Program-made: the position numbers and the translations under genes
Notes under the pieces: model-generated
What the model was told of the DNA's origin: nothing
The model's database searches: none
Seen by the model: only the letters and a program-made list of their open reading frames with translations
Origin: Saccharopolyspora gregorii
GTDB taxonomy: Bacteria; Actinomycetota; Actinomycetes; Mycobacteriales; Pseudonocardiaceae
Length of the DNA stretch: 64,000 nt
Assembly (NCBI RefSeq): GCF_024734405.1
Contig: NZ_CP059556.1
Coordinates: 5,208,001-5,272,000 of the forward strand
Direction of reading: 5' to 3'
In this document: in pieces, positions 10,077-42,833 of the stretch
Layout: every line of letters starts with the position of its first letter
Position numbering within the stretch: position 1 is the first letter of the stretch

Positions 10077-10100
10077 GCGCGCGTCCTGCGTGACGCGCGC
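10077..10100 (+). terminator. Hairpin in the metE leader, possible riboswitch expression platform
   Basis: GCGCGCGTC and GACGCGCGC form a perfect nine-base stem with a six-base loop directly after the B12 box. There is no strong U run, so it could be a factor-assisted terminator or a structural spacer. Its role is inferred from position only. Confidence 0.45.
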
Positions 10101-12571: not shown

Positions 12572-12721
12572 CGAGTGAACGGACCGTTCGTCCGATCTAG
12601 TTGGTCGAACGGTCCGTTCACTCGCGTCAGGCCGGCTCCGCGGCCCGCGCGCCGCCCGTGCCGTGGTTCGGGGTGAACGGACCGTTCGTCCCATCTAGTT
12701 GGTCGAACGGTCCGTTCACCC
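12572..12721. repeat. Paired-palindrome repeat group 1 (two units)
   Basis: Units at 12572-12624 and 12671-12721, separated by 46 bases. Each has left arm GTGAACGGACCGTTCG, a 15-base middle (TCCGATCTAGTTGGT, then TCCCATCTAGTTGGT) and right arm CGAACGGTCCGTTCAC. Flanking bases extend the outer stem to 17-19 pairs. Each arm contains the 13-bp palindrome GAACGGWCCGTTC, and the centres of the two palindromes are 30 bases apart. The group begins 65 bases after the metE stop and could act as its 3' end. Confidence 0.9.
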
Positions 12722-13010
12722 GGCTCGCTGCGGCCGGTGCGCGTGGCGCCGGTGTCACGGGACGACAACGACCCGGCACCGCTGATCACTTTTGCACTAC
12801 GGCTGCACGTCGTTCCCCGGCCCGCCCTCGCGTCGAGGTGCCGCCGGCCCGGATCCAGCGCGCCGGGCAGGCGCGGACATCCGCAGTGGAACCCGTTGCG
12901 GCCCAAGGGATCCGACGTCTCGAGCGCCGAGGGCGGAGCGCGGTTCCGAGACCTCCCGGCACCTACCACGACCCGGCGAAAGCCGCAGTGCAGGTGGTTA
13001 GGGTGAGCCG
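12722..13010. other. Leader region of the methyltransferase gene
   Basis: About 290 bases with no credible gene. I see no strong promoter or binding-site motif; the short TTAGGGTGAGCCG just before 13011 is a weak ribosome-binding region. Confidence 0.4.
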
Positions 13011-13631
13011 GTGTCGGAGCAGTGGAGCCACAACGTGCACTACCACCCGCTCGTTCTCGACTCGGTGCCCGAAGGATGCGACGCGGCGCTCGACGTCGGG
13101 TGCGGCGACGGGACGCTGGTGCGCGCGCTGGCGTCGAGGGCGAAGCGCGCCACGGGCATCGACCGCTCCCGCACGATGATCCGCCAAGCCCGCCGCGCCA
13201 GCTACCAGTACGACAACGTGTCCTATGTGGACTCGGACTTCGTCGATTTCGCCGCGAAGGCGCGGGACGGCTCGTACGGGTTCATCAGCAGCGTCGCCGC
13301 GCTGCACCACATGGACTTCGATTCCACGCTCACCGCCATGGGCCGGATGCTCGCCCCCGGCGGGAGGCTGGTGCTCGTCGGCCTGGCTCGGCACCACACC
13401 CCGCTGGACTGGGCGAGGGACATCGCGGCGATCCCGGTGCACCGCTTCCTCGCCCGCAGGCACGGCGGGGTCACCGAGCCTCCGGAGGTCCCGGTGAAGG
13501 ACCCGATCATGACCTGGGATGAGGTGCGCCAGGGCGCGCAGCGACAGCTGCCCGGCGTCCAGTACCGCAGGTTGCTGCTGTGGCGCTACGCGCTCACCTG
13601 GGACAAACCCGTCCCGACCTTCTCCGGGTGA
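13011..13631 (+). CDS. Class I SAM-dependent methyltransferase
   Basis: 206 residues from a GTG start. The SAM-binding glycine motif ALDVGCGDGTLVRAL lies near residue 25, followed by the acidic strand end in GIDRSR and a FISSVAALHHMDFD post-motif with LAPGGRLVLVGLARH. This is the Methyltransf_11/25 type acting on small molecules or, less likely, quinones; the substrate cannot be read from sequence. The TGA stop (13629-13631) lies inside the first paired-palindrome unit of group 2, so the repeat is part of the coding end. It converges on a MarR gene. Confidence 0.88.
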   Translation: MSEQWSHNVHYHPLVLDSVPEGCDAALDVGCGDGTLVRALASRAKRATGIDRSRTMIRQARRASYQYDNVSYVDSDFVDFAAKARDGSYGFISSVAALHHMDFDSTLTAMGRMLAPGGRLVLVGLARHHTPLDWARDIAAIPVHRFLARRHGGVTEPPEVPVKDPIMTWDEVRQGAQRQLPGVQYRRLLLWRYALTWDKPVPTFSG

Positions 13632-13977
13632 ACGGCCCGTTCGACCAACGCGATGGGACGAACGGTCCGTTCACCCACTTCGGCGGCGACAGGACCGATC
13701 GCACACGAACCACTTCCCCGGGTGAACGGACCGTTCGACCAACGAGATGGGACAAAAGGTCCGTTCACTCGGAAACCCCTGGCCCGGTGCCGACCACTCG
13801 CGCCGGAGCGAACGGACCGTTCGACCAACCAGATCGGACGAACGGTCCGTTCACCCATCGCCGCGGCGGCGGGACGGCCGGGCGTTCCGGAGCGACGGTC
13901 GGCGTAGGCGCGGGTGCGCACGTGGACGTCGTGAACGGACCGTTCGTCCGGTTCCGCTGGACGAACGGTCCGTTCAC
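13626..13977. repeat. Paired-palindrome repeat group 2 (four units)
   Basis: Units at 13626-13676, 13722-13768, 13808-13854 and 13931-13977, with unrelated spacers of 45, 39 and 76 bases. Middles are 15 bases in every unit (ACCAACGCGATGGGA, ACCAACGAGATGGGA, ACCAACCAGATCGGA, TCCGGTTCCGCTGGA). The second unit has a degenerate right arm (CAAAAGGTCCGTTCAC) and the third a one-base change in its outer stem. The group fills the gap between the convergent methyltransferase and MarR genes: it supplies the TGA of the first and ends 14 bases from the stop of the second. Confidence 0.9.
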
Positions 13978-13991
13978 TCCCGATCGGGGCG

Positions 13992-14441
13992 TCAGGCCCG
14001 GGCGGTGACCCGGTGGAAGGCGTCGACGAGGTCGCCGAGTTCGGGGACCTGTTCGGCTTCGGCGAGGGTCTTCTCGAGCGCCGCGTCGTGGGTGGGCCGC
14101 GCCTGTTCGAGGAGCGCGCGGCCTTCGTCGGTGAGTTCGGTGTAGATGCCCCGCCGATCGTCCTTGCACAGGATCCGGGTGAGCAGCCCCCGGTCTTCGA
14201 GCCGGGTGACGAGCCTGGTGGTGGCGCTGCCGCTGAGCGCGGCGGCGCGGCTGAGCTGCTGCATGCGCATGTGCCAGCCGTCCTGCCTGCTGAGCGCGTC
14301 GAGGACGGTGTACTCGACGACGGACAGCCCGTGGTCGGCGGTGAGCGCCTTCTCCAGGGCGGATTCGAGCATTCCGTGCAGTGCGGCGAGGGTGCGCCAG
14401 CCTTGTGCCCGCACTTCGACCGCGTCGTCGGCGATCCCCAC
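13992..14441 (-). CDS. MarR-family transcriptional regulator
   Basis: 149 residues, GTG start behind AGGAGGTGTGGC. The winged-helix region is clear: LSVVEYTVLDALSRQ, then MQQLSRAAALSGSATTRLVTRLEDRGLL (helix-turn-helix, quoted in parts here) and the wing KDDRRGIYTELTDEGRALL. MarR proteins are dimeric repressors that respond to small phenolic or oxidative ligands. It is divergent from an SDR gene across 213 bases that contain repeated TGCAACTA sequences, so it probably represses the SDR and itself. Its stop lies just beyond paired-palindrome group 2. Confidence 0.92.
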   Translation of the reverse strand: MGIADDAVEVRAQGWRTLAALHGMLESALEKALTADHGLSVVEYTVLDALSRQDGWHMRMQQLSRAAALSGSATTRLVTRLEDRGLLTRILCKDDRRGIYTELTDEGRALLEQARPTHDAALEKTLAEAEQVPELGDLVDAFHRVTARA

Positions 14442-14501
14442 GCCACACCTCCTACCGGCGAGCTTCGACGGGTGAGCTCGCTCTCCCCACCACCATAGCA
14501 G

Positions 14502-14551
14502 CTTGCGCAGATAGCAAGCGCCTGCAACTATTTAGGAAGCGCGTGCAACTA
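14502..14551. promoter_or_regulatory. Candidate MarR operator region
   Basis: A 17-base inverted repeat CTTGC-N7-GCAAG spans 14502-14518, overlapping the first of two direct copies of an AAGCGCSTGCAACTA-like sequence (14515-14530 and 14536-14551). It lies between the divergent MarR and SDR starts. Symmetry and position suggest operators; binding is not shown. Confidence 0.5.
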
Positions 14552-14654
14552 CCGGCTAAAGCCGCATTTCTTCACACGCACGACGCCGAAACACCCGCAT
14601 CACCCCGCGCCCCAGCGGGAACCCGTGGCGAACACCCTAGGAGAGCGAGCACCG

Positions 14655-15443
14655 ATGAACACCGACATGACCGGCCGCACCGCCCTGGTCACCGGCTCCA
14701 CCAGCGGCATCGGGAAGGCCATCGCGGCGAGCTTCGCCCGCGCCGGAGCCGACGTCGTCGTCAACGGCCGGTCCCGGGACCGGGTCGACGCCACCGTCGA
14801 ATCGCTGCGCGCCGACACCGGCGGTTCGGTGCGCGGCATCGCCGCGGACATCGGCACGGCCGAAGGCGCCGAAGCGCTCATCACCGAGCTGCCCGACGTG
14901 GACGTTCTCGTGAACAACGCCGGGATCTTCTCCGCCACCCCGGTCTTCGAGATCAGCGACGCGGAATGGTCCCGGTTCTTCGAGGTGAACGTGCTCTCCG
15001 GGGTGCGCCTGGCCAGGCACTACACCCCGCGCATGGTGCAGCGCGGCTGGGGCCGGGTGATCTTCATCAGCAGCGAGTCCTCGATCTTCATCCCCACCGA
15101 GATGGTGCACTACGGCATGACCAAGACCGCGCAGCTGTCCGTGGCGCGCGGCATGGCCCAGGAGGTCAAGGGCACCGGCGTCACCGTGAACAGCGTGCTG
15201 CCCGGCCCGACGCTGACGCCCGGCGTCGCGGAGTTCATCGCCAGCCGGGTCGGCGACGACGTGCCGTTCGAGGAGGCGGAGCGCCGCTTCATCGCCGAGG
15301 AGCGCCCGAGCTCGTTGCTCGGCAGGCTGATCCGCCCCGACGAGGTGGCGAGCCTGGTGCTCTACGCCGGATCGGAGGCCGGCTCGGCGACGACCGGGGC
15401 CGCGCTGCGGGTGGACGGCGGCGTCGCCCCCTCGCTGGCCTGA
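14655..15443 (+). CDS. SDR-family oxidoreductase
   Basis: 262 residues. The Rossmann motif TALVTGSTSGIGKAIA, the NNAG motif in VLVNNAGIF, the catalytic Ser in VIFISSESS, and Tyr/Lys in YGMTKTAQL are all present, and the C-terminus RVDGGVAPSLA has the classical SDR ending. The substrate is unknown. I chose the ATG at 14655 behind CTAGGAGAGCGAGCACCG; a second in-frame ATG at 14664 is possible. It is divergent from the MarR gene and probably its target. Confidence 0.9.
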   Translation: MNTDMTGRTALVTGSTSGIGKAIAASFARAGADVVVNGRSRDRVDATVESLRADTGGSVRGIAADIGTAEGAEALITELPDVDVLVNNAGIFSATPVFEISDAEWSRFFEVNVLSGVRLARHYTPRMVQRGWGRVIFISSESSIFIPTEMVHYGMTKTAQLSVARGMAQEVKGTGVTVNSVLPGPTLTPGVAEFIASRVGDDVPFEEAERRFIAEERPSSLLGRLIRPDEVASLVLYAGSEAGSATTGAALRVDGGVAPSLA

Positions 15444-15451
15444 GCGGTGCC

Positions 15452-15486
15452 GCGGATCCGGCGGGCGGTCGAGCCCACCGGATCCG
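15452..15486. terminator. Bidirectional hairpin between convergent SDR and hydrolase genes
   Basis: GCGGATCCGG and CCGGATCCGC form a perfect ten-base stem, extended inward by GGGC/GCCC around a six-base loop. Outside it GAGC/GCTC can pair too. It lies between two converging stop codons, as expected for a shared terminator, although there is no U run on either side. Confidence 0.6.
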
Positions 15487-15493
15487 CCGCTGC

Positions 15494-16423
15494 TCAACCG
15501 CGGTACTCGGCCAGGAACGGACGCATCGCGGCGAGCATGCCCACCGGATCCTCCTCCGGCACGTAGTGCCCGGCACCCTGCAGCACGACACTGGTGACGT
15601 CCGTCGCGACCGCGCCGATCTCGGCCGCCATGCCTTCCCCGATGGACTCCGAACCGGCGATCGTCAGCACCGGCAACGTCAGCTTCCGCTCACGCCGCAC
15701 CAGGTTCTGCTCGATGATCGAATCGATGGCGCGGTAGTAGTCGAAGCTGGCCCGCAGCGCCTCCGGGTCGCGCAGCGCGTCCACGTAGACCTGCACCGCG
15801 TGCTCCGGGATCGACGTCGGCGTGGCGGCCTTCGTGGCGAACTGGTGCCCGAAGTAGACGTCCTCCCGGCCGCGCACCAACCGCTCGTTGATCTCCAGCG
15901 CGCGGTTGAAGTTGAAGTGCCACAGGAGATCGCTGGTCCGCCGGTCGGCCAGCAGCGGCGGCGACTCGGACAGCCCGGGCACGATCGCCTCCGAGAACAC
16001 CGCCCGCTCCAGCACCTCCGGGTGGTCGGCGGCCAGCGCGTAGCCGGTCCAGGCACCGATGTCGTGCGAGACGAGCGCGAACCGCTCGTGGCCGAGCTCG
16101 CGCATCAGCTCCACCAGATCGGTGGCCAGCGTCCCGGAGTCGTAGCCGGCGGCGGGCTTGTCCGTCAGGTTCACGCCGCGCGGGTCCACCACCACGACGG
16201 AGAACCGCTCGGCGAGCTCCGGCAGGACGAAGCGCCACTGGTACCAGTTCTGCGGCCAGCCGCCGAGCACCAGCAGCGGCGGACCGTCGCCACCGCTCAG
16301 GTAGTGCGTGCGCAGGCCGCCTGCCGTGGTGTAGTGGCCCCGGAAGGTCTCGGTGAAACCGTCCGGCAGCAGCGGCGCCGAAGCGAGGGAACCGGGGCCG
16401 TGCGGAACTTCGGTTGAGGTCAC
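15494..16423 (-). CDS. Alpha/beta hydrolase, epoxide-hydrolase-like
   Basis: 309 residues. The oxyanion-hole motif is GGWPQNWYQW, matching the HGxP/GGWP pattern of epoxide hydrolases and haloalkane dehalogenases. The nucleophile is the Asp in ALVSHDIGAWTGYA and the catalytic His lies in VLQGAGHYVPEEDP. FDPRGVNLTDKP-type wording (VVVDPRGVNLTDKPAAG) follows strand 4. It probably opens epoxides or similar electrophiles in the cytoplasm. The GTG start has GGAG at a suitable distance. The gene is divergent from a TetR regulator across 151 bases that contain a good palindromic operator, so it is probably induced by that regulator's ligand. Confidence 0.87.
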   Translation of the reverse strand: MTSTEVPHGPGSLASAPLLPDGFTETFRGHYTTAGGLRTHYLSGGDGPPLLVLGGWPQNWYQWRFVLPELAERFSVVVVDPRGVNLTDKPAAGYDSGTLATDLVELMRELGHERFALVSHDIGAWTGYALAADHPEVLERAVFSEAIVPGLSESPPLLADRRTSDLLWHFNFNRALEINERLVRGREDVYFGHQFATKAATPTSIPEHAVQVYVDALRDPEALRASFDYYRAIDSIIEQNLVRRERKLTLPVLTIAGSESIGEGMAAEIGAVATDVTSVVLQGAGHYVPEEDPVGMLAAMRPFLAEYRG

Positions 16424-16531
16424 GAGGAAACTCCGTGTTCGACGAAGGAGGGGAACCCGGCCGGTGCCGCTCGGCGCCTAGCGGACGGCTCACCTGGGTG
16501 GCCGGGCCGGCCGGTGCGACCTACACTAGCC

Positions 16532-16555
16532 ATGTTGGAACGATCGGTCAAACAT
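16532..16555. promoter_or_regulatory. Candidate TetR operator between hydrolase and regulator
   Basis: ATGTTGGAACGATCGGTCAAACAT is an imperfect 24-base palindrome with 12 of 14 overlapping half-site positions matching, centred on CGATCG. It lies 20 bases before the TetR start and next to TACACT, a possible -10 element. The arrangement suggests control of both divergent genes; binding is inferred. Confidence 0.6.
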
Positions 16556-16574
16556 AGCGGAGGGAGTGCGCCAG

Positions 16575-17180
16575 ATGGCAGGACGCAAGCAGTTCGACGT
16601 CGACACCGCCCTGGACGGAGCGATGCACGTGTTCTGGGAGCACGGCTACGCCGAAGCCAGCCTCAGCAGACTGCTCACCGCCACCGGGCTCGGCCGCGGA
16701 TCGCTGTACTCCACCTTCGGCGGCAAGGACGAACTGCTCCAGCGCAGCGTCCGCCGCTACGCCGAACTGTTCGCCGCGCCCATGTCCGCCGCCCTGCGCT
16801 CCCGCCCGGACGACCCCACCGCCGCCGTCCGCGCGTTCTTCGACACCGTGCTCACCCGGCTCGCCGACCCCGAGGTGCCCGCCGGCTGCCTGATCACCCG
16901 GCTCGCCGCCGAAACCGCCGACCTGGACGCGCCGGTGCGCGAGGTCGTCGCCGGCGCCCTCGCCGGGCAGCGCGCCGAGATCCGCGCCGCCCTCCGGCCC
17001 GCCGAAGACGCGGTGTCCGCGGAACGGCTCGACGACCTGGCGCTGTACGCGGCGGCGATCAACCAGTCGCTGACCGTGCTGCACCTCGCCGGGACACCGG
17101 TGGCCGAACTGCGCACCATCGCGGACCTCGCTCACGAGCACATCGCGGCGGCGCTGGCCACGCCGCCGCGAACGGAGTGA
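16575..17180 (+). CDS. TetR/AcrR-family regulator
   Basis: 201 residues. The N-terminal helix-turn-helix reads ALDGAMHVFWEHGYAEASLSR, LLTATGLGRGSLYSTFGGKDE (shown in two parts), which is complete and typical of the AcrR/YvdT subgroup whose partners are often reductases or hydrolases. The C-terminal ligand domain has AGCLITRLAAETADLD. ATG at 16575 was preferred to a GTG three codons earlier because GGAGGG lies ten bases upstream. Its TGA stop (17178-17180) lies within the first unit of paired-palindrome group 3. Confidence 0.9.
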   Translation: MAGRKQFDVDTALDGAMHVFWEHGYAEASLSRLLTATGLGRGSLYSTFGGKDELLQRSVRRYAELFAAPMSAALRSRPDDPTAAVRAFFDTVLTRLADPEVPAGCLITRLAAETADLDAPVREVVAGALAGQRAEIRAALRPAEDAVSAERLDDLALYAAAINQSLTVLHLAGTPVAELRTIADLAHEHIAAALATPPRTE

Positions 17181-17495
17181 ACGGACCCTCCGACCAACTA
17201 GATGGGACGAACGGTCCGTTCACTCCGCTCCGGAGCCACCGAACTCCGAGTCAACGGACCGTTCGACCAACGGGACTGGACACACGGTCCGTTCACCCAC
17301 GCGCAGCGACGCCCCGCACCGACGGGAGGCCCGTGGAGTGAACGGACCGTTCGACCAACTAGATCGGACAAGCGGTCCGTTCACTCCACACGGCGGGGCT
17401 CGGAAAGAGGCCGTCGCTCGCCGCCGCGGTGCACCGGTCGCGCCGAGTGAACGGACCGTTCGACCAACTAGATGGGACGAACGGTCCGTTCACTC
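17174..17495. repeat. Paired-palindrome repeat group 3 (four units)
   Basis: Units at 17174-17226, 17250-17296, 17334-17388 and 17445-17495, with spacers of 23, 37 and 56 unrelated bases. Middles: ACCAACTAGATGGGA, ACCAACGGGACTGGA, ACCAACTAGATCGGA, ACCAACTAGATGGGA. The first two units carry arm mismatches (left CCCTCCG; right CACACGG). The first unit contains the stop codon of the TetR gene. The 117 bases from 17496 to the next gene include its GGAGG ribosome-binding site. Confidence 0.9.
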
Positions 17496-17612
17496 CAACA
17501 AGGGGGGAGGAGTGCGGCACCCCGCTCTGTGGCGTCTGACGCAGAACCCGAACACCACGAGTGCTGAACTGGTCACGCAACGAGATCGGCCCACCGCAGG
17601 GAGGACTCCGCC

Positions 17613-18158
17613 ATGGCCCGCCGCACCGCACCTCGTCCCGCTCCGCATCCCGAGCCCGCCACCGACGACCACCTCACCCCCGAGCAGGAGCTGGACGTGG
17701 CGCTGCGCACCGCAGGTGACTTCCGCACCTGGATCTCCGGCGCCGACACCAAAGCGGGGCTGCTGATCCCCGCGCTCGGCATCGGCATCGGCGGCGCGGG
17801 CAACGCCATGTCCGGGTCCCACGCCGCAGCGCTGCAGCACGGCCCGCTGCGGGCCGCGTCGCTGGTGCTGCTGGGGCTGCTGTTGTGCGGGGCGCTGGGC
17901 GCGCTGCTGCACCTCGCGGCCGTGCTCACGCCGCGCACCGGCGCTCCGGCCGGCGGGGCGAACGCGTTCGCCTTCCCCTCCTTCCGCCCGGCGCACGGAG
18001 CCACGGCTACCGAGCTGTGCGCGCAGGCCTGGCAGCAGGCGGAGGCACTGGCGCAGATCGCCGCCACCAAGTACCGGCGCCTGCGCATCGCCCTGCACTG
18101 CTCCTGCGGGGCGCTGCTGGCGTTCCTGGCGTGGACGGCGCTGCTCGCGGTGCGCTGA
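17613..18158 (+). CDS. Pycsar-effector-like two-helix membrane protein (PycTM/DUF5706 type)
   Basis: 181 residues. After a Pro-rich N-terminus comes FRTWISGADTKAGLLIPALG, matching the ADTKAGLLL hallmark of the Pycsar effector/DUF5706 family, followed by two membrane helices (about residues 48-70 and 82-105). A cytoplasmic segment then reads AEALAQIAATKYRRLRIAL, another family feature, and a final helix (about 160-180) ends the protein. In Pycsar defence, membrane effectors of this family are triggered by cyclic CMP or UMP made by a cyclase and damage the membrane; no cyclase gene is in the window. It converges with a cNMP-binding regulator gene at a four-base gap. The family call is from motif memory. 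Confidence 0.68.
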   Translation: MARRTAPRPAPHPEPATDDHLTPEQELDVALRTAGDFRTWISGADTKAGLLIPALGIGIGGAGNAMSGSHAAALQHGPLRAASLVLLGLLLCGALGALLHLAAVLTPRTGAPAGGANAFAFPSFRPAHGATATELCAQAWQQAEALAQIAATKYRRLRIALHCSCGALLAFLAWTALLAVR

Positions 18159-18162
18159 GCCG

Positions 18163-18819: not shown

Positions 18820-19027
18820 GCCGCCCCCGCTCGCGCGCCTCCGCGGGGCTCCACGCACCCCGGCGCTCCGCTGCAACCCGGTGGCCGAGTGGCGGCCGAC
18901 CATGATCGTGGAGGACCCGAGCTTGGCAGGCGTGGGCCGGGCTCGGCCAGCACCCGGACGAGGAGCGGTGCGAGAGGCCTCCCACCACACCGACGTCCCG
19001 GCCGGACGCGACCGCGTGCGACCGACG

Positions 19028-20334: not shown

Positions 20335-20451
20335 CACAGATCCCTCAATCCCGCCTCTGCCACGAACACCGGAAACGACCGTACGCCACCACCGGTGCAC
20401 GCCTGCGCGTGACCTGGCGGGACAGTGGTGCCGGCCACGCGATGGCGTGGC

Positions 20452-21618
20452 TCAGGACACTCCGGGCAGACCGTAGGCGCGGGCGATCAACTCGTAGGAG
20501 CGCAGCTTCGCGTCCCGGTCGTACAGGTTCGCGGTGAGCATCAGCTCGTCGACCTCGGTGCGTTCCCGCAGCTCCTCCAGCTCCGCGTGCACCGAATCCG
20601 GCGTGCCGTGGATCGCGTCCGCCAGCCACGAGTCCACGATGCTCTGCTCCACCGCGGAGTACGGGTAGTCCCGCGCCTCCTGCGGGCTCGGCATCCGGCC
20701 CGGGTTCCCGCTGCGCAGCCGCAGCATGCTCAACGCCATCGGACGCGCCAGGTCCAGCGCCTCCTGCTCGGTGTCGGCGGCGATCGCCTGCGCGCCGATC
20801 ATCGAGTACGGCTCGGCCAGCACCTCGGAGGGTTGGAACGACTTCCGGTACAGGTCCAGCGCAGGCAGCGTGTTGCGCGCCGAGAAGTGGTGGGCGAACG
20901 CGAACGGCAACCCGAGCGCGCCCGCGACCTGCGCGCTGAACCCGCTCGAACCGAGCAACCACACCGGCGGCGCCTGCCCGTGCGGCACCGAACTCACCTC
21001 GGCGTACGGGTGGTCGGCGCTGAAACCGTCGCCGAGGAACCGCAGCAGGTCGCCCAGCTGCTCCGGGAAGTCGTCCACCGACAGCGGGCCGCTGGTGCGG
21101 CGCAGCGCCCGCGCCGTCCCCTGGTCGGTGCCGGGAGCGCGGCCGATGCCCAGGTCGATGCGACCCGGGTGCAGCGCCTGCAAGGTGCCGAACTGCTCGG
21201 CCACGACCAGCGGCGCGTGGTTCGGCAGCATCACCCCGCCCGAACCGAGGCGCAGCGTGCTCGTCGCCGACGCCAGGTGCGCGATCACCACCGGCGGGGA
21301 AGAGCTCGCGATGCCCGGCATGCCGTGGTGCTCGGCGACCCACAGCCGGTGGAATCCCCAGCGCTCGGCGGCCCGGGCGAGTTCGGTGGTGGTGGCCAGC
21401 GCCTCCCCCGGTGTCGTCTGCGCGCCGACGGGCGCGAGGTCCAAGATCGACAGCGGCACGGCCGAGCGGCCGCGGGCGGTGCCGCGGATCGGGTCGGGCC
21501 GGGATGCGGGACCGCCGGCCTCGAGGGCGGTGCGGTCCGGGTTGGCGACGGTATCCATCGCCGCTTGCAACCATCCGGCGGCGGGGCTTTGTTCCCGGGC
21601 CGCTGTGCGGGTGCTCAC
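20452..21618 (-). CDS. LLM-class flavin-dependent oxidoreductase
   Basis: 388 residues; luciferase-like monooxygenase of the MsnO8 type ([10 protein letters not shown]... [16 protein letters not shown] ... [23 protein letters not shown]). The conserved [16 protein letters not shown] and [13 protein letters not shown] segments are typical of the alkanal monooxygenase-like group that uses reduced FMN. The substrate is unknown. Homologues usually begin at [10 protein letters not shown], so the first 50 residues annotated here are doubtful; no convincing Shine-Dalgarno distinguishes the possible starts at 21618, 21558 or the GTG near LSILD. A single paired-palindrome unit separates its upstream side from the hydroxylase gene. 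Confidence 0.85.
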
Positions 21619-21632
21619 ACGCCCGGCCGCGG

Positions 21633-21679
21633 GTGAACGGACCGTTCGTCCGATCTAGTTGGACGAACGGTCCGTTCAC
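21633..21679. repeat. Paired-palindrome repeat group 4 (single unit)
   Basis: One perfect unit: GTGAACGGACCGTTCG, middle TCCGATCTAGTTGGA, CGAACGGTCCGTTCAC. The palindrome centres are 30 bases apart. It ends 13 bases beyond the stop of the N-hydroxylase gene on the minus strand, and 14 bases upstream of the annotated start of the flavin oxidoreductase. Confidence 0.9.
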
Positions 21680-21692
21680 TCCCCCGCTCGGG

Positions 21693-23036
21693 TCAGGCCC
21701 GGTCGCCGGTGAGCGCGTAGTCCGGGTGCGCAGCCGGGGCCGGCGAGCTCCGGTGGCGCAGGATCGACTCGCGGATGTCCCCGGCCCGCACCGCACCGTT
21801 CGACAGCAGCGAGGAGGTGATGCCGTGGGTGTGCTCGGTCCCGCCTTGGAAGTACACGCCGCCGCGCACGCCGCCGGTGGTGCGCACCCGGTAGTCGCGG
21901 TCGACCTGCACCTGCCCGTCGCCGTCGCGGAGGCATTCCTCCCAGGTGCGCCCGAGGAACCGCCCGGGATCGCCGGGACGGCAGCCGGTGGCGTAGACGA
22001 GCACGTCGGAGTCGAGGACGGTGCGCTCCCCGGTCGGGAGGAATTCGACGGTGACGGCGACGCCGTCGTCGGTGGCGCGCACGTCGACGATGCGGGAGGC
22101 GTTGAGCATCCGCAGCCGTTCCTCGCCGCGCACCTTCTCCTGGTAGGCCCGCGCGTAGAGCTGCTCGATGAGTTCGAGGTCGACCACCGAGTAGTTGGTG
22201 TTGCGGTGGTAGTCCATGAGCATCTGCTTCACCCCGCTCGGCGCGGTGTAGAAGTGGTCGACCGCGTCGGGGTCGAAGATGCGGTTGGCGAAGGGGCTGT
22301 CGTCGGCGGGGGTGTGCCCGTACCGGCTGAACACCGAGCAGACCTCGGCGCCGGTGAACGTGCGGTGCAGGTAGTCGGTGACCTCGGCGGCGCTCTGACC
22401 GGCGCCGATGACGGTGAACCGGCGCGGTTCGCTGTCGCGGAGTTCGCCGACGCGGTGCATGAGTTCGAGGTTGTGCCACACGCGGTCGCCGAGCTCGGCG
22501 CCGGGCGGCAGGCTCGCTTCGAGCCCGACGGCGACGACGATGTTGCGGGCGCGGCTGGTGGTGACCTGGCCGGAACCGTGCCGCACGAGCACTTCGAAGA
22601 CCTCGCCGTCCTGCACGGGCCGCACGTCGATGACTTCGGCGTCGTACTGGACGAGGTGGTCGAGCCTGCCCGCGGCCCACTCCAGGTAGTCGTGGTATTC
22701 GACGCGGGTGGGGAACATCGTCTTGTGGTTGATGAAGTCGACGAGCCTGTTCTTGTCCTGCAGGTAGGACAGGAAGGAGAAGTCGCTGGCGGGCTCCCGC
22801 ATCGTCACGAGGTCCTTGAGGAACGAGACCTGCATGGTGGTGCCCTCGATGAGCATCCCGCGGTGCCAGCCGAACTGCGGTTTGCGTTCCAGGAAGCTCG
22901 CGTCGAGCCGTTCGCCCTCACCGCATCGGCGGTTGTGTTCCTCGACGGCTACGGCCAGCGCTAAGTTGGAGGGGCCGAAGCCGATGCCCAGGATGTCCTG
23001 GCCGTGGCCTTGCACGTGGGTCGGAGCCGCAGACAC
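21693..23036 (-). CDS. L-ornithine/L-lysine N-monooxygenase of a siderophore pathway
   Basis: 447 residues of the SidA/PvdA/IucD family. The FAD motif is ILGIGFGPSNLALAVAVEE; QFGWHRGMLIEGTTMQVSFLKDLVTMREP is the substrate/FAD region (quoted in parts); FTVIGAGQSAAEV is the NADPH motif and DVLVYATGCRP the C-terminal family mark. It hydroxylates the side-chain amine of ornithine (or lysine), giving the N-hydroxy amino acid used for hydroxamates. The GTG start has GAAGGGA upstream. The gene follows the siderophore-interacting protein gene at a 66-base gap and so is probably transcribed from the same iron-box promoter at 23.98 kb. Ornithine is favoured by context, not proven. Confidence 0.93.
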   Translation of the reverse strand: MSAAPTHVQGHGQDILGIGFGPSNLALAVAVEEHNRRCGEGERLDASFLERKPQFGWHRGMLIEGTTMQVSFLKDLVTMREPASDFSFLSYLQDKNRLVDFINHKTMFPTRVEYHDYLEWAAGRLDHLVQYDAEVIDVRPVQDGEVFEVLVRHGSGQVTTSRARNIVVAVGLEASLPPGAELGDRVWHNLELMHRVGELRDSEPRRFTVIGAGQSAAEVTDYLHRTFTGAEVCSVFSRYGHTPADDSPFANRIFDPDAVDHFYTAPSGVKQMLMDYHRNTNYSVVDLELIEQLYARAYQEKVRGEERLRMLNASRIVDVRATDDGVAVTVEFLPTGERTVLDSDVLVYATGCRPGDPGRFLGRTWEECLRDGDGQVQVDRDYRVRTTGGVRGGVYFQGGTEHTHGITSSLLSNGAVRAGDIRESILRHRSSPAPAAHPDYALTGDRA

Positions 23037-23102
23037 GGTTGTCCCTTCGCCGGTACCCGGTCGGTGTCGCGCGCGGGCACGGTGGAATCCGCAGACCGCT
23101 CG

Positions 23103-23936
23103 TCAGTCGCGGTCGTGGTTGTATCGATCGTGGTAGTCGGTTTCGGCCATGCCGGCCTTCCAGTAGCCGATGGCGAGCACCGACGCGGGGTCGAACCCGC
23201 GGTCCTGCCGCAGGTGGCGGCGAATTCCGCGGACGACCCCGGATTCACCGGAGACCCAGGCCGACACGTCGAGGGTGTCGGGGATGTCGAGGTCGCGGAC
23301 CGCGTCGGTGAGCAGGGTGGAACGCCCCGCGGGGATCCCGTCGCGGTGCAGCCAGGTCATCCGCACGTTCGGCGGGCATTCGATGTGCTGCTGGTCGCCG
23401 CTCCCGCCGACTTCGAGGAAGACCTGTCCGCTGGCGGTGATCGGGAGCTCTTCGATGATGGAGGCGATGGCCGGCATCGCCGTCTCGTCGCCGACCAGCA
23501 GGTACCAGTCGGCTTCCCGGCAGGTGCGCCCACCGGGTCCGAGCACGCCGAGGTAGTCGCCGGGTTCTGCGCGGCGCGCCCAGGACGCGGCGACACCGTG
23601 TTCCCCGTGCATGACGAAGTCGATGTCCAGCTCGCCGCGCTGCTCGTCGTAGCGGCGCACCGTGTAGGTGCGCATCGTGGGTCGTTCGTGCGGTTCGGGC
23701 CAGTCGTAGCGGCCCTCGTCGTTGAGGACGGGGAGCACCGGGCGATGTTGACCGGGTTGCGGAACGAACACCTTCACGTTGGGCCCGCTGTGCTGCTCGC
23801 GGAATCCGGTGAGTTCCTCGCCGCCGAGGGTGATGCGCCGCATGGACGGCGAGAGCTCCGTCGTGCGCAGCACTTCCAGCGTGCGGGTCGGCGGACGGCG
23901 GTGTGCGCCGCGTCGGGGTCGGTCCGCTGTCGTCAT
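23103..23936 (-). CDS. Siderophore-interacting protein (ferric-siderophore reductase)
   Basis: 277 residues of the ViuB/YqjH family. The FAD-binding part shows MRRITLGGEELTGF and PTMRTYTVRRYD (the R-x-Y-T/S motif); the NAD(P)H part has WYLLVGDETAMPAIASIIEEL, and YWKAGMAETDYHDRY ends the protein as in this family. It releases iron from imported ferric siderophore in the cytoplasm by reduction. An iron box (23984-24002) lies 48 bases upstream of the ATG, and the N-hydroxylase gene follows. Confidence 0.94.
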   Translation of the reverse strand: MTTADRPRRGAHRRPPTRTLEVLRTTELSPSMRRITLGGEELTGFREQHSGPNVKVFVPQPGQHRPVLPVLNDEGRYDWPEPHERPTMRTYTVRRYDEQRGELDIDFVMHGEHGVAASWARRAEPGDYLGVLGPGGRTCREADWYLLVGDETAMPAIASIIEELPITASGQVFLEVGGSGDQQHIECPPNVRMTWLHRDGIPAGRSTLLTDAVRDLDIPDTLDVSAWVSGESGVVRGIRRHLRQDRGFDPASVLAIGYWKAGMAETDYHDRYNHDRD

Positions 23937-23983
23937 CGGGCCTGGCGTTCCTTCCTCACTGTCTCCAGAACGATCACTGGAAT

Positions 23984-24002
23984 TAAGGCTAGCCTAACCA
24001 TA
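23984..24002 (-). promoter_or_regulatory. IdeR/DmdR iron box upstream of the reductase gene
   Basis: On the minus strand TATGGTTAGGCTAGCCTTA matches the actinobacterial 19-base iron box (TTAGGTTAGGCTAACCTAA) at 15 of 19 positions, including GGTTAGGCTA. Iron-bound DtxR/IdeR regulators repress at such sites. Confidence 0.82.
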
Positions 24003-24070
24003 GAACGTCGGCATGTCTTCCTCCGGTGGGCCAGATCTCGCCACTCGGGCGCGACCACCCCACCGGCCCG

Positions 24071-25492
24071 TCAGCCGCGCCCGGCGGGCACCGCGTCGGC
24101 CCCGTCCCCGGCGTCGGCCGCGCGACCAGCGGTGGCCCCAAGTTCGCCCGGGTTCTTGATGCGCAGCGCGACCAGGACGCCGAGCAGCGCGAACCCGGCG
24201 GAGACGAGCATGGCGAAGTGGTACACCCCGAGCGAGCCGGAAGAACCCGCGCCGCCGATCGCCAGCACCCCCGCCGTCACCGCCACGCCCAGCGCCGAAC
24301 CGACCTGGCGCTGCACGTTGAACAGCGTGGAGGCCCCGCCGGTGGCGGTGGCGCTGATCGTCGCGAACGCGACCACCTGCAACTCGATCGAGGCGGCGCC
24401 GACGAAGAAGCCGGAGGCGAACTGCACGACGCCCGCCGACAGCGGTCCGGTCACCAGGTTCATCGCGGCGAACGACCCGGCCGCGCCGAGCATCGCCACC
24501 GCGATCAGCAGCCGCGGACCCCACTTCGGGTGCGCCCAGGTCACCGCCTGCGAAGCCACCATCAGCCCCACCGCCTTCGGCAGCGTCACCAGGCCCGTCT
24601 CCCACGGCGAGGCGCCCATCCCCGACTGGTACATCAACGTGAACCCGTAGAGGGTGCCGAGGAACCCGGCCACGCACGTCGCCAGGATCAGGCTGGCCCG
24701 CCGGAACGAGGCGTCGCCGAACAACCGCACGTCCAGCATCGGCTGCCGCGACCGCAGCTGGCTCACCACCAGCGCCACCAGGCACCCGACGCCGACCGCG
24801 CCGGCCAGGTAGAAGTGCGGCGAACCGGGCCCGCGCATCGACACCGCGTCCAGCGCGTACATCAGCAGCCCCAGGCCGGGCGCGGCGAGCGCGAACCCGA
24901 CCAGGTCGAACCGCTTGTGCACCGATTCGACGTGCTCCCGCAGCCGCAGCGCTCCGTACACCAGCGCCAGCACCCCGAACGGCACGTTCACGAAGAAACC
25001 CCACCGCCAGGTGAGCTGCTCCACGAACAGCCCGCCGAGCACCGGCCCCAGCGCGGGGGCGACGGCGGTCGGGATCACCAGCACCCGGGACAGCTTGATC
25101 CGCTCCTGCGGCGGGTAGGCGCGGAACAGCATGGTCAGCGCCACCGGGCTCAGCACCCCGCCGCCCGCGCCCTGCACGATGCGGGCGAGGGTCAGCTGGG
25201 TGAGGTCCTGCGCCGCCCCGCACAGCGCGGAGGCCAGCACGAACGCGCCGAACGCGGCCAGGAACACCTTCTTCGTGCCGAACCGGTCGCCGAGCCACCC
25301 CGACACCGGGATGCACACCGCGAGGCTCACCAGGTAGCCGATGTTGATGGCGCTGGTGGCGCTCGGCGGCACCCCGAACTCGGCGCCGATGGCGGGCAGC
25401 GCCACGTTCACGATGGTGGCGTCCATGCCGTTCATGAACATCGCGGCGACGTAGACGACGCAGACCGCGACCTTGGGGTCGTTCACACGCAT
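24071..25492 (-). CDS. MFS exporter, DHA2 (EmrB/QacA) family
   Basis: 473 residues with about 14 helices. MFMNGMDATIVNVALPAIGAEF and SVAVCIPVSGWLGDRFGTKKVF-like motif A (AVCIPVSGWLGDRFG) near the N-terminus, and LARIVQGAGGGVLSP (motif C region) mark the DHA2 drug:proton antiporters. Its start lies 12 bases after the mbtH stop, making it the third gene of the NRPS-mbtH-exporter operon, so siderophore secretion is its likely role. That role is inferred from position; the family also exports drugs and dyes. Confidence 0.88.
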   Translation of the reverse strand: MRVNDPKVAVCVVYVAAMFMNGMDATIVNVALPAIGAEFGVPPSATSAINIGYLVSLAVCIPVSGWLGDRFGTKKVFLAAFGAFVLASALCGAAQDLTQLTLARIVQGAGGGVLSPVALTMLFRAYPPQERIKLSRVLVIPTAVAPALGPVLGGLFVEQLTWRWGFFVNVPFGVLALVYGALRLREHVESVHKRFDLVGFALAAPGLGLLMYALDAVSMRGPGSPHFYLAGAVGVGCLVALVVSQLRSRQPMLDVRLFGDASFRRASLILATCVAGFLGTLYGFTLMYQSGMGASPWETGLVTLPKAVGLMVASQAVTWAHPKWGPRLLIAVAMLGAAGSFAAMNLVTGPLSAGVVQFASGFFVGAASIELQVVAFATISATATGGASTLFNVQRQVGSALGVAVTAGVLAIGGAGSSGSLGVYHFAMLVSAGFALLGVLVALRIKNPGELGATAGRAADAGDGADAVPAGRG

Positions 25493-25504
25493 TGGTTTCC
25501 CGAT

Positions 25505-25698
25505 TTACACGCTGTTGCGGGCCGGGCGGATGTCCGTCCAGTGCACCTCGATGTGGTCCAGGCAGGACTTCCGGTCGGCGGGGCCGTGGGCGACGGTCCA
25601 GCCGTCGGGCACCCGGATCCGCTCCGGCCACAGCGAGTACTGGTCCTCGTCGTTGATCAGGGCGTAGAACGAGCCGTCGGCGTCGTCGAACGGGTTGC

Positions 25699-25702
<4 letters not shown>
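25505..25702 (-). CDS. MbtH-like protein
   Basis: 65 residues. The signature is complete: [19 protein letters not shown], followed by [14 protein letters not shown], with the conserved Trp residues. MbtH proteins bind NRPS adenylation domains and are needed for their solubility or activity. The ATG overlaps the NRPS stop (ATGA), so translation is coupled, and the exporter gene follows 12 bases on. The partner is clearly the adjacent NRPS. Confidence 0.97.
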
Positions 25703-32856
<7,154 letters not shown>

Positions 32857-32879
32857 CGTTCTCCCCCACGGGACACGGA

Positions 32880-32898
32880 CAAAGTAAGGCTAACCTTA
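32880..32898 (-). promoter_or_regulatory. IdeR/DmdR iron box upstream of the NRPS
   Basis: The core TAAGGCTAACCTTA is a near-palindrome and contains AGGCTAACCT of the 19-base iron-box consensus; overall about 14 of 19 positions agree. It ends 24 bases before the NRPS start, placing the repressor over the promoter or leader. Confidence 0.75.
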
Positions 32899-32990
32899 TT
32901 TCACCGTCCGCCGGGTGACCAGAACCCCTGCTGCGTGCGCTACCTCTCAGCGGGGAGGCGTCCACCCGGCGGTAACCACCCGAGCCCGTG

Positions 32991-33237
32991 GAGTGAACGG
33001 ACCGTTCGTCCCATCTAGTTGGTCGAACGGTCCGTCGACTCGGGCTGCGCACCCGCGGCGGAGGACCTGGATCCGCCCGCCCCGGGAACGAGCGAACGGA
33101 CCGTTCGCCCAATCCCGTTGGACGAACGGTCCGTTCACCGTCGAAGTCCTCCCACCCACCGCGCCGGACCATCGTCCGCGAGCACCGGGGTGAACGGACC
33201 GTTCGTCCCGTAGAACCGGACGAACGGTCCGTTCACC
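32991..33237. repeat. Paired-palindrome repeat group 5 (three units)
   Basis: Units at 32991-33041, 33092-33138 and 33189-33237 with two 50-base spacers. Middles: TCCCATCTAGTTGGT, CCCAATCCCGTTGGA, TCCCGTAGAACCGGA. The first unit's right arm is changed (CGTCGACTC). The last unit ends 15 bases beyond the stop of the acyltransferase gene on the minus strand. The remaining bases between the NRPS iron box and this group hold no gene. Confidence 0.9.
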
Positions 33238-33252
33238 TGCGCGGGAGAGCTG

Positions 33253-34584
33253 TCAGCGGTCGTGCACCATCAACGCCGAGTTCTTGCCGGGCAGCCCGAC
33301 CTCGCGGGCTCGGACGAAACCCGCCTTCCCGAACGCCGCCACCGACGCTCCGTTGTGGACGTTCGGCTCGGCGACGACCCGCGCGCATTCCGGATCCGCC
33401 GCCAGCAGGCCGTGAGCCACCGCCTCCAGCAGCGACGAGCCGAAACCGCGCCCGATGGCGTCCTTCTCCCCGATCGCGATGTGCACGCCGAGATCACGCG
33501 GGTGCAGCGGGTAGCAGGTGGCGAGCTTGTCGCGGACCACCCGGTACAGCTCGACGTAGGCGACGTCCCGCCCGTCGCGCCGCACGATGCACGGCACCGA
33601 GTGCTGCCCGCCGAGCTGTGCGCCGAGCTCGTCCCGCCAGCGCTGCAACGACCACGCCTGGTTCCAGTTGACCGCCACGTGGTCTTCGTTCATCCACCGG
33701 TGCACCAGCTCCGGGTCATCCGAGTCCAGCGCGACCGGCCGCAACGACCAGCCGTCGCCGAGTTCCGGGACCGGCACCCCGGGCACGCCGTCCGCGGCGG
33801 TGGCGCGCATCGGGTTCGGCACCTCGTAGCGCACGGGCGAGACCGCCACCTTGCCCTCGGCCAGGTAGCGCAGTCCGGAACCGTTGAGCACCGCCAGGTC
33901 GGTCAGGGTGGCGCTGTCGAGCCAATGCCGGATGACCCGCTCGGTGTCGGGGTAGGTGTCGGCGAGCGCGCCCAGCTCCTCGGCCAGCGCGACCAGCAGT
34001 TCCTGCTCGTCGGCGACTCCGCGCAGTCCGAACCGGCCGATGGCGGCCAGCGAGCGGCGGGTCAGCAGCCGGGCGGTCACCTCGGCCAGGTCGGCGCGCT
34101 CGTCGAGGTTGCGCAGCGCCGGCGTCACCGTGCTCTCCACGTGCGAGGCGAGCCAGCGCCGCGCCTCGTCCTGCGACGACACGCCCTGCCCGAGCACGTC
34201 GACCTCGTCGTTGCCCGTCAGCGGATCCACCGCGCCGGTGCGGACCGCGTCCAGCAGCCAGTCCAGCAGCGTGCCCGAACCTTCGGCGTTGATCGGGGCG
34301 TCCGCGGTGGCCCGGCCGCGTGCATCCGCCGAGCACGCCGCGGCCAGCAGCGCGGAGTCGGCGAGGTCACCGGAGTCCGCCACCCGGATCGGTCCGAACC
34401 CGTGCGCGCCGGTCGGTGAGCGGTAGGTGACCTCGGTGGTGAACCGCAGCGGCCCGATCGTCACCTTCAGCGAACCCGCTTCGATCGGGGTGTGCGTTTC
34501 CGCGAGCCACCTCCGCAACAACAGCGCCGCCCGCGGGTCCACCTGCACGTTCTCGGCCACACCTGTCACACGCCACCTCTTCAC
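33253..34584 (-). CDS. GNAT acyltransferase of the IucB/RhbD type with an extra N-terminal domain
   Basis: 443 residues. The C-terminal 200 are an N-hydroxy-amino-acid acyltransferase (Acetyltransf_8, as in IucB, AlcB, MbtK): WMNEDHVAVNWNQAWSLQRW, YVELYRVVRDKLATCYPLH, DLGVHIAIGEKDAIGRGFGS and VVAEPNVHNGASVAAFGKAGF. It would acylate N-hydroxyornithine to give the hydroxamate. The N-terminal 240 residues are hydrophilic, partly helical and not recognised by me. GTG at 34584 is the longest start; GTG codons five and eight residues later are better placed after AAGAGGTGG. It lies apart from the NRPS, with no iron box seen upstream and repeats on both sides. Confidence 0.83.
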   Translation of the reverse strand: MKRWRVTGVAENVQVDPRAALLLRRWLAETHTPIEAGSLKVTIGPLRFTTEVTYRSPTGAHGFGPIRVADSGDLADSALLAAACSADARGRATADAPINAEGSGTLLDWLLDAVRTGAVDPLTGNDEVDVLGQGVSSQDEARRWLASHVESTVTPALRNLDERADLAEVTARLLTRRSLAAIGRFGLRGVADEQELLVALAEELGALADTYPDTERVIRHWLDSATLTDLAVLNGSGLRYLAEGKVAVSPVRYEVPNPMRATAADGVPGVPVPELGDGWSLRPVALDSDDPELVHRWMNEDHVAVNWNQAWSLQRWRDELGAQLGGQHSVPCIVRRDGRDVAYVELYRVVRDKLATCYPLHPRDLGVHIAIGEKDAIGRGFGSSLLEAVAHGLLAADPECARVVAEPNVHNGASVAAFGKAGFVRAREVGLPGKNSALMVHDR

Positions 34585-34671
34585 GCTGCGTTGGGAACGC
34601 CGACCCTAACTCAGCCGACCGGGTAAACGGACCTGCGTTCTCCGGTGCCCCCCGGTCACCGCCTTCGCGGA

Positions 34672-35040
34672 GTGAACGGACCGTTCGACCAACTAGATGG
34701 GACTAACGGTCCGTTCACCCGAAACCTCGCACGGCCGACCGGGTGAGACAGCTCCAGTGCCCGTCCCTCCACTCCGGGCGCCGGGTGAACGGACCGTTCG
34801 TCCAAGCGGATCGGACCAACGGTCCGTTCACCCCTGACGGCCGGCGGCAGCGGGGAGCTCCGAGCAGCATCGGCCGGAGTGAACGGACCGCTTGACCAAC
34901 TAGATGGGACCAACGGTCCGTTCACTCCAGGACCGGCGGGGCGGGCGCGGCACTCGGCACCGCCCCGGCGCACCACGACAGCACCGGAGTGAACGGACCG
35001 TTCGACCAACTAGATCGGACGAACGGTCCGTTCACTCCGG
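34672..35040. repeat. Paired-palindrome repeat group 6 (four units)
   Basis: Units at 34672-34718, 34783-34833, 34876-34928 and 34984-35040 with spacers of 64, 42 and 55 bases. Middles: ACCAACTAGATGGGA, TCCAAGCGGATCGGA, ACCAACTAGATGGGA, ACCAACTAGATCGGA. The first three have one or two arm substitutions; the last is perfect and extends outward to CCGGAGTGAAC/GTTCACTCCGG. It ends eight bases from the stop of the ABC ATPase gene on the minus strand. Confidence 0.92.
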
Positions 35041-35048
35041 AACGGGGG

Positions 35049-42823: not shown

Positions 42824-42833
42824 GTCGGTGACG

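Follow-up and report, generated by a model that had tools for sequence, protein, structure and literature searches.

A 64,000-nt stretch of the genome of Saccharopolyspora gregorii (NZ_CP059556.1, positions 5,208,001 to 5,272,000; hereafter the window) carries 18 copies of a short symmetric unit, each made of two 13-bp odd palindromes of the type GAACGGWCCGTTC that lie a fixed distance apart and can together form one long hairpin. We consider it somewhat probable that these units are short symmetric repeats resembling REPINs (repetitive extragenic palindrome, or REP, doublets forming hairpins), with a dedicated AbiEi-like partner protein and not a REP-associated tyrosine transposase (RAYT). 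As read from the DNA, the units are a discrete repeat of mostly fixed geometry, with a preference for the 3' ends of genes, dialects that differ by compensatory change at orthologous sites, an absence of the Y1 transposase family and an association with one particular gene. The AbiEi-like protein may bind the arms and copy or convert the units, and the hairpin may act on transcription.

Geometry and limits of the unit

Allowing two mismatches, the 13-mer matches the window 37 times, where 2.5 matches are expected and the maximum over 100 shuffles was 8. Thirty-six of these matches form the 18 units, which fall into six groups (of 2, 4, 4, 1, 3 and 4 units) spanning 12577 to 35033, and the 37th (24977) is isolated within a called gene. 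The search agrees with an earlier note on this stretch, which had described 18 units in six groups with a 15-base middle in each: the gap between the two 13-mers is 17 bp in all 18 units, the same distance in that note's counting. The note also had each arm holding the 13-bp palindrome, and here it claimed too much, since both 13-mers are exact in nine of the units and the other nine carry one to three mismatches; one arm centre, at 13630, is C and not W (A or T). The units occur in either orientation relative to the upstream gene, and five foldings of four of them gave 21-24 stem pairs with z of -7.8 to -9.5. A covariation count over the 18 window units gave no support above chance (the score was reached by 386 of 500 shuffles and the percentage paired by 482 of 500). 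This count is uninformative because the copies are too alike, and the evidence for compensatory change given below is drawn from other dialects and from orthologs, not from the window units.

The whole genome of S. gregorii (6.34 Mb) holds 148 exact 13-mers, and the backwards pattern used as a control occurs nowhere in it. All 148 were read in sequence, and 141 are paired at exactly 30 bp to one side or the other with a partner of three mismatches or fewer; the other seven, judged by eye, are one copy with a 16-bp gap, five half units and one copy (L179:7175) in a called gene. Among the hairpin-type pairs of this genome the gap is 17 in 86 of 89 (the others are 12, 16 and 30), and the 86 pairs with this gap carry 251 substitutions from the consensus middle, so that spacing is far more constant than sequence, as the earlier note had proposed. 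Its argument depended on the arms not being single as often as they are paired and on the middle not varying freely in length; the genome-wide pairing bears out the first, and for the second, when the gap was left free between 4 and 34 bp, 867 of 883 pairs in six other genomes had a gap of 17.

The limits of the unit are sharp. In 104 units of the S. gregorii genome the four bases outside each arm are conserved at 0.51-0.99, while the fifth has fallen to background or close to it (0.51-0.58); in 35 units with a CTAG-type middle the corresponding values are 0.74-1.00 and 0.51-0.69, and in Amycolatopsis keratiniphila and Amycolatopsis sp. WAC 01376 the likeness between units ends after five outer bases. 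Because conservation stops at the fourth or fifth outer base, we regard the unit as a discrete symmetric repeat of 51 bp (53 in Amycolatopsis). In the flanks over about 20 bp, the commonest base is mostly C on the left and G on the right, a composition skew symmetric about the unit. By the places listed, units look clustered at 5.22-5.42 Mb and near 0.60-0.65 Mb and not evenly spread.

To see the geometry independently of the 13-mer, we used a motif-free hairpin scan of 400 kb at fixed positions in four Amycolatopsis genomes, which returned 54 hairpins in intergenic DNA and a single one inside a called gene. The 37 long odd-centred hairpins fall into 15 arm classes. All five classes with three or more members begin with GAA, end with TTC, TTA or TTG and keep the 13-17-13 register; most singleton classes lack this start and these ends. 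When each class is represented by one hairpin, the self-palindromy of the arms peaks at 0.59 about an axis 15 bp away from the hairpin centre; other offsets give 0.15-0.39, and shuffled stem pairs reached at most 0.48 in 500 trials. This peak across arm classes indicates that the 30-bp distance between axes is independent of any one sequence. The suggestion in the earlier note that a unit can also be read as two palindromes is thus real, the Amycolatopsis arms being self-palindromic at this axis with other cores as well. In a set of 224 units with GAA/TTC arms, biased in that many loci were chosen for the GAACGG form, all seven interior hairpin pairs are present in 190, and among these the arm symmetry at two tested positions is full in 162 and not in 28; a further 16 show arm symmetry without the full hairpin. 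These 28 and 16 exceptions mean that neither the full hairpin nor the arm symmetry is strictly kept. Amycolatopsis also has a second repeated family of 3'-end hairpins, whose arms are of the CCTCTGAATGCGG type, whose centre is usually even and which lacks the GAA/TTC ends (L059, L086, L087, L091, L312, L313 and L316).

Dialects across genomes and at orthologous sites

A pattern scan of 84,980 species genomes gave at least 120 loci with paired 13-mers; among the matches listed, these belong to Amycolatopsis, Saccharopolyspora, Halosaccharopolyspora, Halopolyspora, Asanoa, Rhodococcus spelaei, Kutzneria, Actinosynnema and a few others, and the gap, allowed to range from 4 to 34, is 17 in 110 of 136 pairs. 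In a count by lineage, this gap is found in 65/67 pairs of the Saccharopolyspora set, 25/26 in Amycolatopsis and 7/7 in Rhodococcus. Within the family Pseudonocardiaceae the 13-mer occurs in 145 of 249 genomes, 12 of which have 45-238 copies. A generalised pattern (fourth position A, G or T, centre free) matches 40 of the 249 genomes and 12 of 46 genera, with no matches for the control, and the number of units in the family ranges from 0 to 435, the maximum being in the genome we call G539. Each of 295 other genomes of the class has 0-2 single 13-mers, and none has an exact pair with a 17-bp gap. Viral contigs hold no exact GAACGG pairs and no relatives of the protein described below, and phages likewise none. 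Between lineages the middles and outer bases of the units vary yet mostly remain paired. On this evidence the units belong to a superfamily found in Pseudonocardiaceae, Asanoa and Rhodococcus, in which the 13-17-13 geometry is held and the sequence varies as a genome-specific dialect. Literature searches with the 13-mers of three dialects returned unrelated papers, and those on Saccharopolyspora, Amycolatopsis, actinobacterial REP/RAYT, Term-seq, REPIN and DUF559/AbiEi topics gave no description of these repeats among the open-access matches listed.

The dialects change at sites that stay in place. In Amycolatopsis loci that are about 87-97% identical, a unit stands at the same spot in a different dialect with its stems still paired. 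At one such site (L138 and L044) the inner stems are CTTGC...GCAAG in one locus and of the ATAAC type in the other, and at another (L119 and L264) GAACGGTCCGTTC is exchanged for GAAAGGTCCTTTC in all four quarter-arms, a four-fold compensated change, with the flanks nearly unchanged. Forms with two changes that keep the hairpin occur at L051:6877 and L068:7842, and in a more distant comparison (L068 and L273, 77-79% identity) the unit is present in one locus only. For Saccharopolyspora, the gene end at window position 13631 has four units in S. gregorii, four in G395, two in G414 and one in G431, and that at 21693 has one, six, three and four in the same order; G373 and G340 have none at either. 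Unit middles in S. gregorii are closer to those at other sites of the same genome (identity 0.797) than to those at the same sites in relatives (0.689). This signal of concerted change is clear for S. gregorii but slight in G395 and G414, and G431 shows the opposite (0.731 vs 0.763). A change of dialect at unchanged positions is unusual and calls for a mechanism of copying or conversion. Three units of G373 (L366:12529, L366:16609 and L367:8858) have an asymmetric form, GAACGGACCGTT(C/G) with GAACAGGCCGTTC or a near partner, and this form may explain why that genome has 80 exact arms and only 5 exact pairs.

The patchy distribution and local clusters, together with there being no transposase known for these units, would also suit debris of an extinct insertion sequence, similar to miniature inverted-repeat transposable elements, with the palindromes kept perfect by template switching at hairpins. 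We regard this as highly improbable. There is no excess of flanking direct repeats, as target-site duplications would leave, in five of six unit sets, and the one weak signal, in the set of all S. gregorii units (6 vs 2.2 expected, 3 bp), arose among many offsets and lengths. Debris would explain neither why another middle length occurs in only 3 of the 89 hairpin-type pairs against 251 substitutions in the rest, nor why the dialect is replaced at old sites.

A gene between the units and the comparison with REPINs

In the Saccharopolyspora loci, 11 genes are flanked on either side by units no more than 450 bp away, and two of these, in S. gregorii and NFXS83, encode proteins that are 84% identical. 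The S. gregorii gene (P0001, 311 aa; L195:4937-5872, which is G000:C1:5284937-5285872) lies outside the window, some 13 kb past its right end. A tblastn search of all loci in our set with this protein gave seven matches, each adjoining units. In total, eight relatives were found in 3.15 Mb of loci, all of them beside units, and a profile of the eight found none further at E <=1. All seven relatives for which both flanks are visible sit between units of the local dialect (at the eighth, L128, one side is cut off). The dialect is GAACGG at L195, L145 and L046, GAAAGG at L306 (an ortholog of L046), GAAGGCCCCC at L298, GAAGGGCCCC at L240 and GAATGTCACAT at L333. Synteny led to orthologs in G395 and G414, both between units, the nearest at 179 and 132 bp and at 248 and about 195 bp, the last distance being read across two adjacent stretches. 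Altogether the gene stands between units of the local dialect in nine of the nine cases with both flanks, the nearest units being no more than about 250 bp away. Among the Amycolatopsis sequences taken at fixed positions, a single gene out of 360 called is flanked on each side by family units at a distance of up to 200 bp, and this gene is a relative; a second relative in this set, cut short by gene calling, is also between units.

A protein search of 72,556 plasmid records gave a single match, in a Rhodococcus ruber record that from its pks13, fadD32 and arabinosyltransferase genes seems to be chromosomal; there the gene sits between hairpins of a further dialect that we reached through the protein only. 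Arms of this dialect (13 bases, two mismatches or fewer) come closer than 60 bp to each other in six pairs, each with a spacing of exactly 30 bp, and the unit occurs at 11 places in the 74-kb record by blastn. This is an example of the protein predicting a new dialect. A record labelled plasmid pmega_4 (NZ_CP145323.1; L354, L355) likewise has genes for pks13, fadD32 and arabinosyltransferases and resembles a piece of chromosome. The syntenic interval of G373, to which this comparison is confined, holds a different gene and no convincing remnant of the flanked one. Units number 4.4 per 100 kb in G373, against 50.5 in G395 and 42.1 in G414, a contrast that is only suggestive of a link between gene and units because the search in G373 covered this interval alone and that genome has its own unit form and Y1 genes.

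AbiEi models from PADLOC match the N-terminal part of all five flanked proteins compared (residues 4-180 for the best models, E 8.7e-7 to 2.1e-12), and the Pfam family AbiEi_4 matches one of seven weakly (E 0.22). The C-terminus carries an invariant D...S...H...T..R pattern, which we take to be one associated with restriction-endonuclease-like domains, and it is possibly nuclease-like. The AbiEi antitoxins of type IV toxin-antitoxin systems share the N-terminal match; the flanked proteins differ from them in their size of about 311-322 aa with an extra C-terminal region and in the placing of their genes between hairpin repeats. In the R. ruber record, the sole locus checked for it, no AbiEii toxin gene is annotated beside the gene. 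AbiEi antitoxin is reported to bind cooperatively to inverted repeats (PMC7319586).

The earlier note knew of no named element with this structure, but REPINs come close: they are inverted doublets of palindromes with a conserved spacer length, compensatory changes and singlets as remnants (PMC3116915), an architecture also given in PMC8049555. REPINs and the present units have in common the inverted palindrome pair, the conserved spacer, the long hairpin, compensatory changes, an extragenic location, up to hundreds of copies, single-arm remnants and a gene between repeats (PMC3116915). Actinosynnema does not share the conserved spacer. Single-arm remnants are rare, with five half units and one genic match among the 148 exact arms. 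The units are unlike REPINs in their 13-bp arms, their length of 51-53 bp, the AbiEi-like flanked gene and in having no evident GTAG/CGTC tag. REP superfamilies and bacterial interspersed mosaic elements (BIMEs) with that tag are found chiefly downstream of coding regions, where the neighbouring genes are convergent or unidirectional (PMC3733652), and so share the location at gene ends. A search within 20 bp outside the arms, run without a shuffled control, found no fixed tag in any unit set; in the left and right flanks of the 104 S. gregorii units, GTAG occurs 0 and 2 times, CGTC 7 and 9 times and GACG 15 and 11 times. A word search of the main text of PMC3733652 found no mention of amycolatopsis, saccharopolyspora, actinobacter, mycobacteri or streptomyces.

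The shared architecture, singlet remnants included, would also be expected of classical REPINs moved by a RAYT that has since been lost or was missed. The Y1/RAYT family (PF01797) is, however, absent from the S. gregorii genome and from 20 of 24 other carriers, G539 with its 435 units among them, although the same model matched 5 of 14 control genomes, including E. coli. With the family absent from most carriers and the tag not evident beside units, movement by a RAYT is disfavoured, and we hold this origin to be very improbable. Another known kind of dispersed motif is the DNA uptake sequence of the Neisseriaceae, a genome-specific short motif with dialects that often forms inverted pairs at gene ends. 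The present 13-mer differs from it in almost never being single, with one of 148 exact copies alone in a called gene.

If the units are indeed REPIN-like repeats with an AbiEi-like partner, the recognised object would most likely be the pair of arm palindromes, whose axes lie 30 bp apart within the hairpin-forming unit of 51 bp (53 in Amycolatopsis). The dedicated protein, encoded between units of the local dialect, would bind this pair and either copy units or overwrite old ones with the current dialect. Copies would survive mainly behind stop codons, where a symmetric hairpin is tolerated or useful, and the hairpin would perhaps serve as a bidirectional terminator without a U-tract or as a stabiliser of 3' ends. 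A bolder form of this proposal, which we put forward as a possibility well short of probable, is a RAYT-independent system in which an AbiEi-fused nuclease recognises two arm palindromes separated by three helical turns and uses cut-and-repair to home the current dialect into old units; dispersed 3'-end hairpins would then evolve in concert with their positions kept, each lineage would have its own protein and dialect, and proteins would predict new dialects.

Several findings weigh against the AbiEi-partner reading. The gap is 17 in 5 of 8 pairs in Asanoa (mostly 17 or 18) and in none of 24 in Actinosynnema, where the 13-mers stand in arrays of varying step that lack a conserved long hairpin, so that the invariant spacing of the earlier note holds for most lineages and not for these. 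Four of the 24 other carriers (G340, G373, G403 and G406) do have Y1 matches, which favours classical REPINs. Among the 11 doubly flanked Saccharopolyspora genes at 450 bp, nine are unrelated to P0001, and under the 200-bp rule genes that are not relatives are doubly flanked as well (three in the S. gregorii genome, one in Sac2 and one in G539). Under a looser rule (any hairpin with 15 of 20 pairs, within 250 bp) three of 319 fixed-position Amycolatopsis genes are flanked, one of them a relative, and hairpins of this kind number 66 in the 400 kb against 15 in shuffled sequence. The nine genes found between units amount to five independent lineages, and several of the loci were chosen because they hold units; two of the flanking copies (3' at L298 and 5' at L240) are decayed, with 15 of 20 pairs. 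A 500-kb sample of G539, the most unit-rich of the genomes, contains no relative. As for the protein, the nuclease-like C-terminus depends on the D...S...H...T..R motif and one sub-threshold match (REase_MTES_1575, PF18741, E 0.065) in one of seven relatives, an AlphaFold model was unusable (mean predicted local distance difference test score 45), and a PDB sequence search gave no credible relative, with one row at chance level. Binding, cleavage and copying by the AbiEi-like protein are predictions.

The Actinosynnema arrays bear on a further reading, in which the units are immobile paired operators, spaced about three helical turns apart so as to present one face, to which a dimeric or tetrameric DNA-binding protein (a roadblock, or a nucleoid or domain organiser) attaches. 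The steps in these arrays are mostly 30-33, 62 and 23 bp, with 42-52 and 74 also seen, the centres of the 13-mers are non-complementary (19/47 vs 18.2 expected), and three of the five arrays read lie between convergent genes; the arm self-palindromy at a fixed axis distance, present with other cores too, and the cooperative binding of AbiEi antitoxin to inverted repeats (PMC7319586) would fit as well. We nevertheless think operator pairs decidedly unlikely, since the sharp 51-53 bp boundary and the compensation in inner and outer stems extend past the arms, single arms are nearly absent, and in the listed part of G310 most arms are imperfect palindromes while the long hairpin is kept. The earlier note had also spoken of operator-like palindromes; the units stand mainly at the 3' ends of genes and not at promoters. 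Two of the arrays (L226:5819-6468 and L227:5555-6254) have 19 and 17 GAACGGWCCGTTC-type palindromes at two mismatches or fewer, with steps often of 31-33 or 23 bp, and lie between convergent genes.

Gene ends and the neighbourhood in the window

Many groups of units lie close downstream of a stop codon, at a distance of 4-20 bp, and in some cases the stop codon is formed by the TGA in GTGAAC. In the S. gregorii genome, 21 of 47 groups lie between tandem genes, 16 between convergent and 5 between divergent genes, with 4 overlapping a called gene (the isolated match at 24977 included) and 1 at an edge. The preference is stronger in Amycolatopsis: A. keratiniphila has 15 convergent, 5 tandem and no divergent groups and 1 at an edge (of 21), WAC 01376 has 19 convergent, 6 tandem and no divergent groups, 2 at edges and 1 in a called gene (of 28), and the motif-free hairpins comprise 36 between convergent, 17 between tandem and none between divergent genes, with 1 at an edge. 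The 3'-end preference is weaker in G539, where of 40 units 20 are tandem, 12 convergent and 2 divergent and another 5 overlap called genes, at a median distance of 53 from the stop. It is also weaker in Saccharopolyspora, whose divergent groups (5 of 47 in S. gregorii and 4 of 24 in NFXS83) are to be added to the points that weigh against our reading. So are two results on terminator action: a T-run or U-tract beyond the outer stem is absent, with a T fraction of at most 0.31 at any position in 115 oriented units, and G-U mismatches on the transcribed strand show no excess over A-C ones overall (74 vs 58, with one set reversed, 5 vs 20).

From their location, an action of the units as terminators or at RNA 3' ends is plausible. 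Structured RNA 3' ends without U-tracts are common in Streptomyces clavuligerus (PMC8269248), and such ends, together with the I-shaped and bidirectional terminators of high-GC bacteria, likewise combine a strong hairpin near the stop, no U-tract and a symmetry suited to convergent genes. The units, known here from DNA alone, differ from these terminators in being repeated and sharply bounded, with a fixed geometry and sequence dialects. It could be argued that nothing more is involved than bidirectional 3'-end hairpins under ordinary selection, as U-tract-less terminators or stabilisers of mRNA 3' ends, kept because both strands of convergent genes need them, with similarity due to descent and gene conversion and the flanked gene incidental. 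The close placing behind stops, the orientation counts in the fixed-position set, the very stable stems and the S. clavuligerus 3' ends (PMC8269248) would all follow. We judge this rather unlikely, because a terminator needs neither a fixed 17-bp gap, nor common GAA...TT ends, nor a secondary axis at 15 bp; the T-run is absent and the strand bias of mismatches inconsistent; the number of units runs from 0 to 435 within one family, with up to six at one gene end; and the nine of nine relatives between units would be left unexplained.

The units of the window and the genes that they adjoin are given in Table 1.

Table 1. Units in the window, with their positions and nearby genes
Unit	Group	Position	Strand	Remarks
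1	1	12573..12623	.	67 bp behind metE (10242-12506 +); CTAG-type middle
2	1	12671..12721	.	
3	2	13626..13676	.	Flanked by convergent methyltransferase and MarR genes; its TGA serves as stop codon of 13011-13631
4	2	13720..13770	.	
5	2	13806..13856	.	
6	2	13929..13979	.	
7	3	17175..17225	.	Contains stop codon of TetR gene 16566-17180 +
8	3	17248..17298	.	
9	3	17336..17386	.	
10	3	17445..17495	.	
11	4	21631..21681	.	12 bp behind stop of 21693-23015 - (ornithine monooxygenase)
12	5	32991..33041	.	Group 5 is 15 bp behind stop of 33253-34560 -
13	5	33090..33140	.	
14	5	33188..33238	.	
15	6	34670..34720	.	Group 6 is 12 bp behind stop of ABC-transporter gene 35049-35810 -
16	6	34783..34833	.	
17	6	34877..34927	.	
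18	6	34987..35037	.	

The nine neighbouring genes in the window, among them genes for methionine synthase, a methyltransferase, MarR, TetR and siderophore-type functions, have no function in common, and no functional theme appears among these nine and nine further genes between units. A cobalamin riboswitch (9847-10087) lies upstream of the gene for the B12-independent methionine synthase (10242-12506) that has group 1 at its 3' end, and a thiamine pyrophosphate (TPP) riboswitch is found at 42817-42912 (-). Groups 4-6 are placed behind three genes of a siderophore-like cluster (20452-37920), which comprises a 2385-aa open reading frame and genes for ornithine monooxygenase, a GNAT acyltransferase and ABC transporters. 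The gene at 17613-18158 matches the Pycsar effector transmembrane family weakly (PF18967, E 2e-6).

Paired-palindrome repeats of bacteria have so far been explained by RAYT transposases, as in REPINs. If the reading favoured here is true, the same repeat design arises with unrelated proteins, and antibiotic-producing actinomycetes such as Amycolatopsis and Saccharopolyspora would gain a defined 3'-end element present in up to several hundred copies. The question of what REPIN-like repeats do would then become testable in tractable strains.

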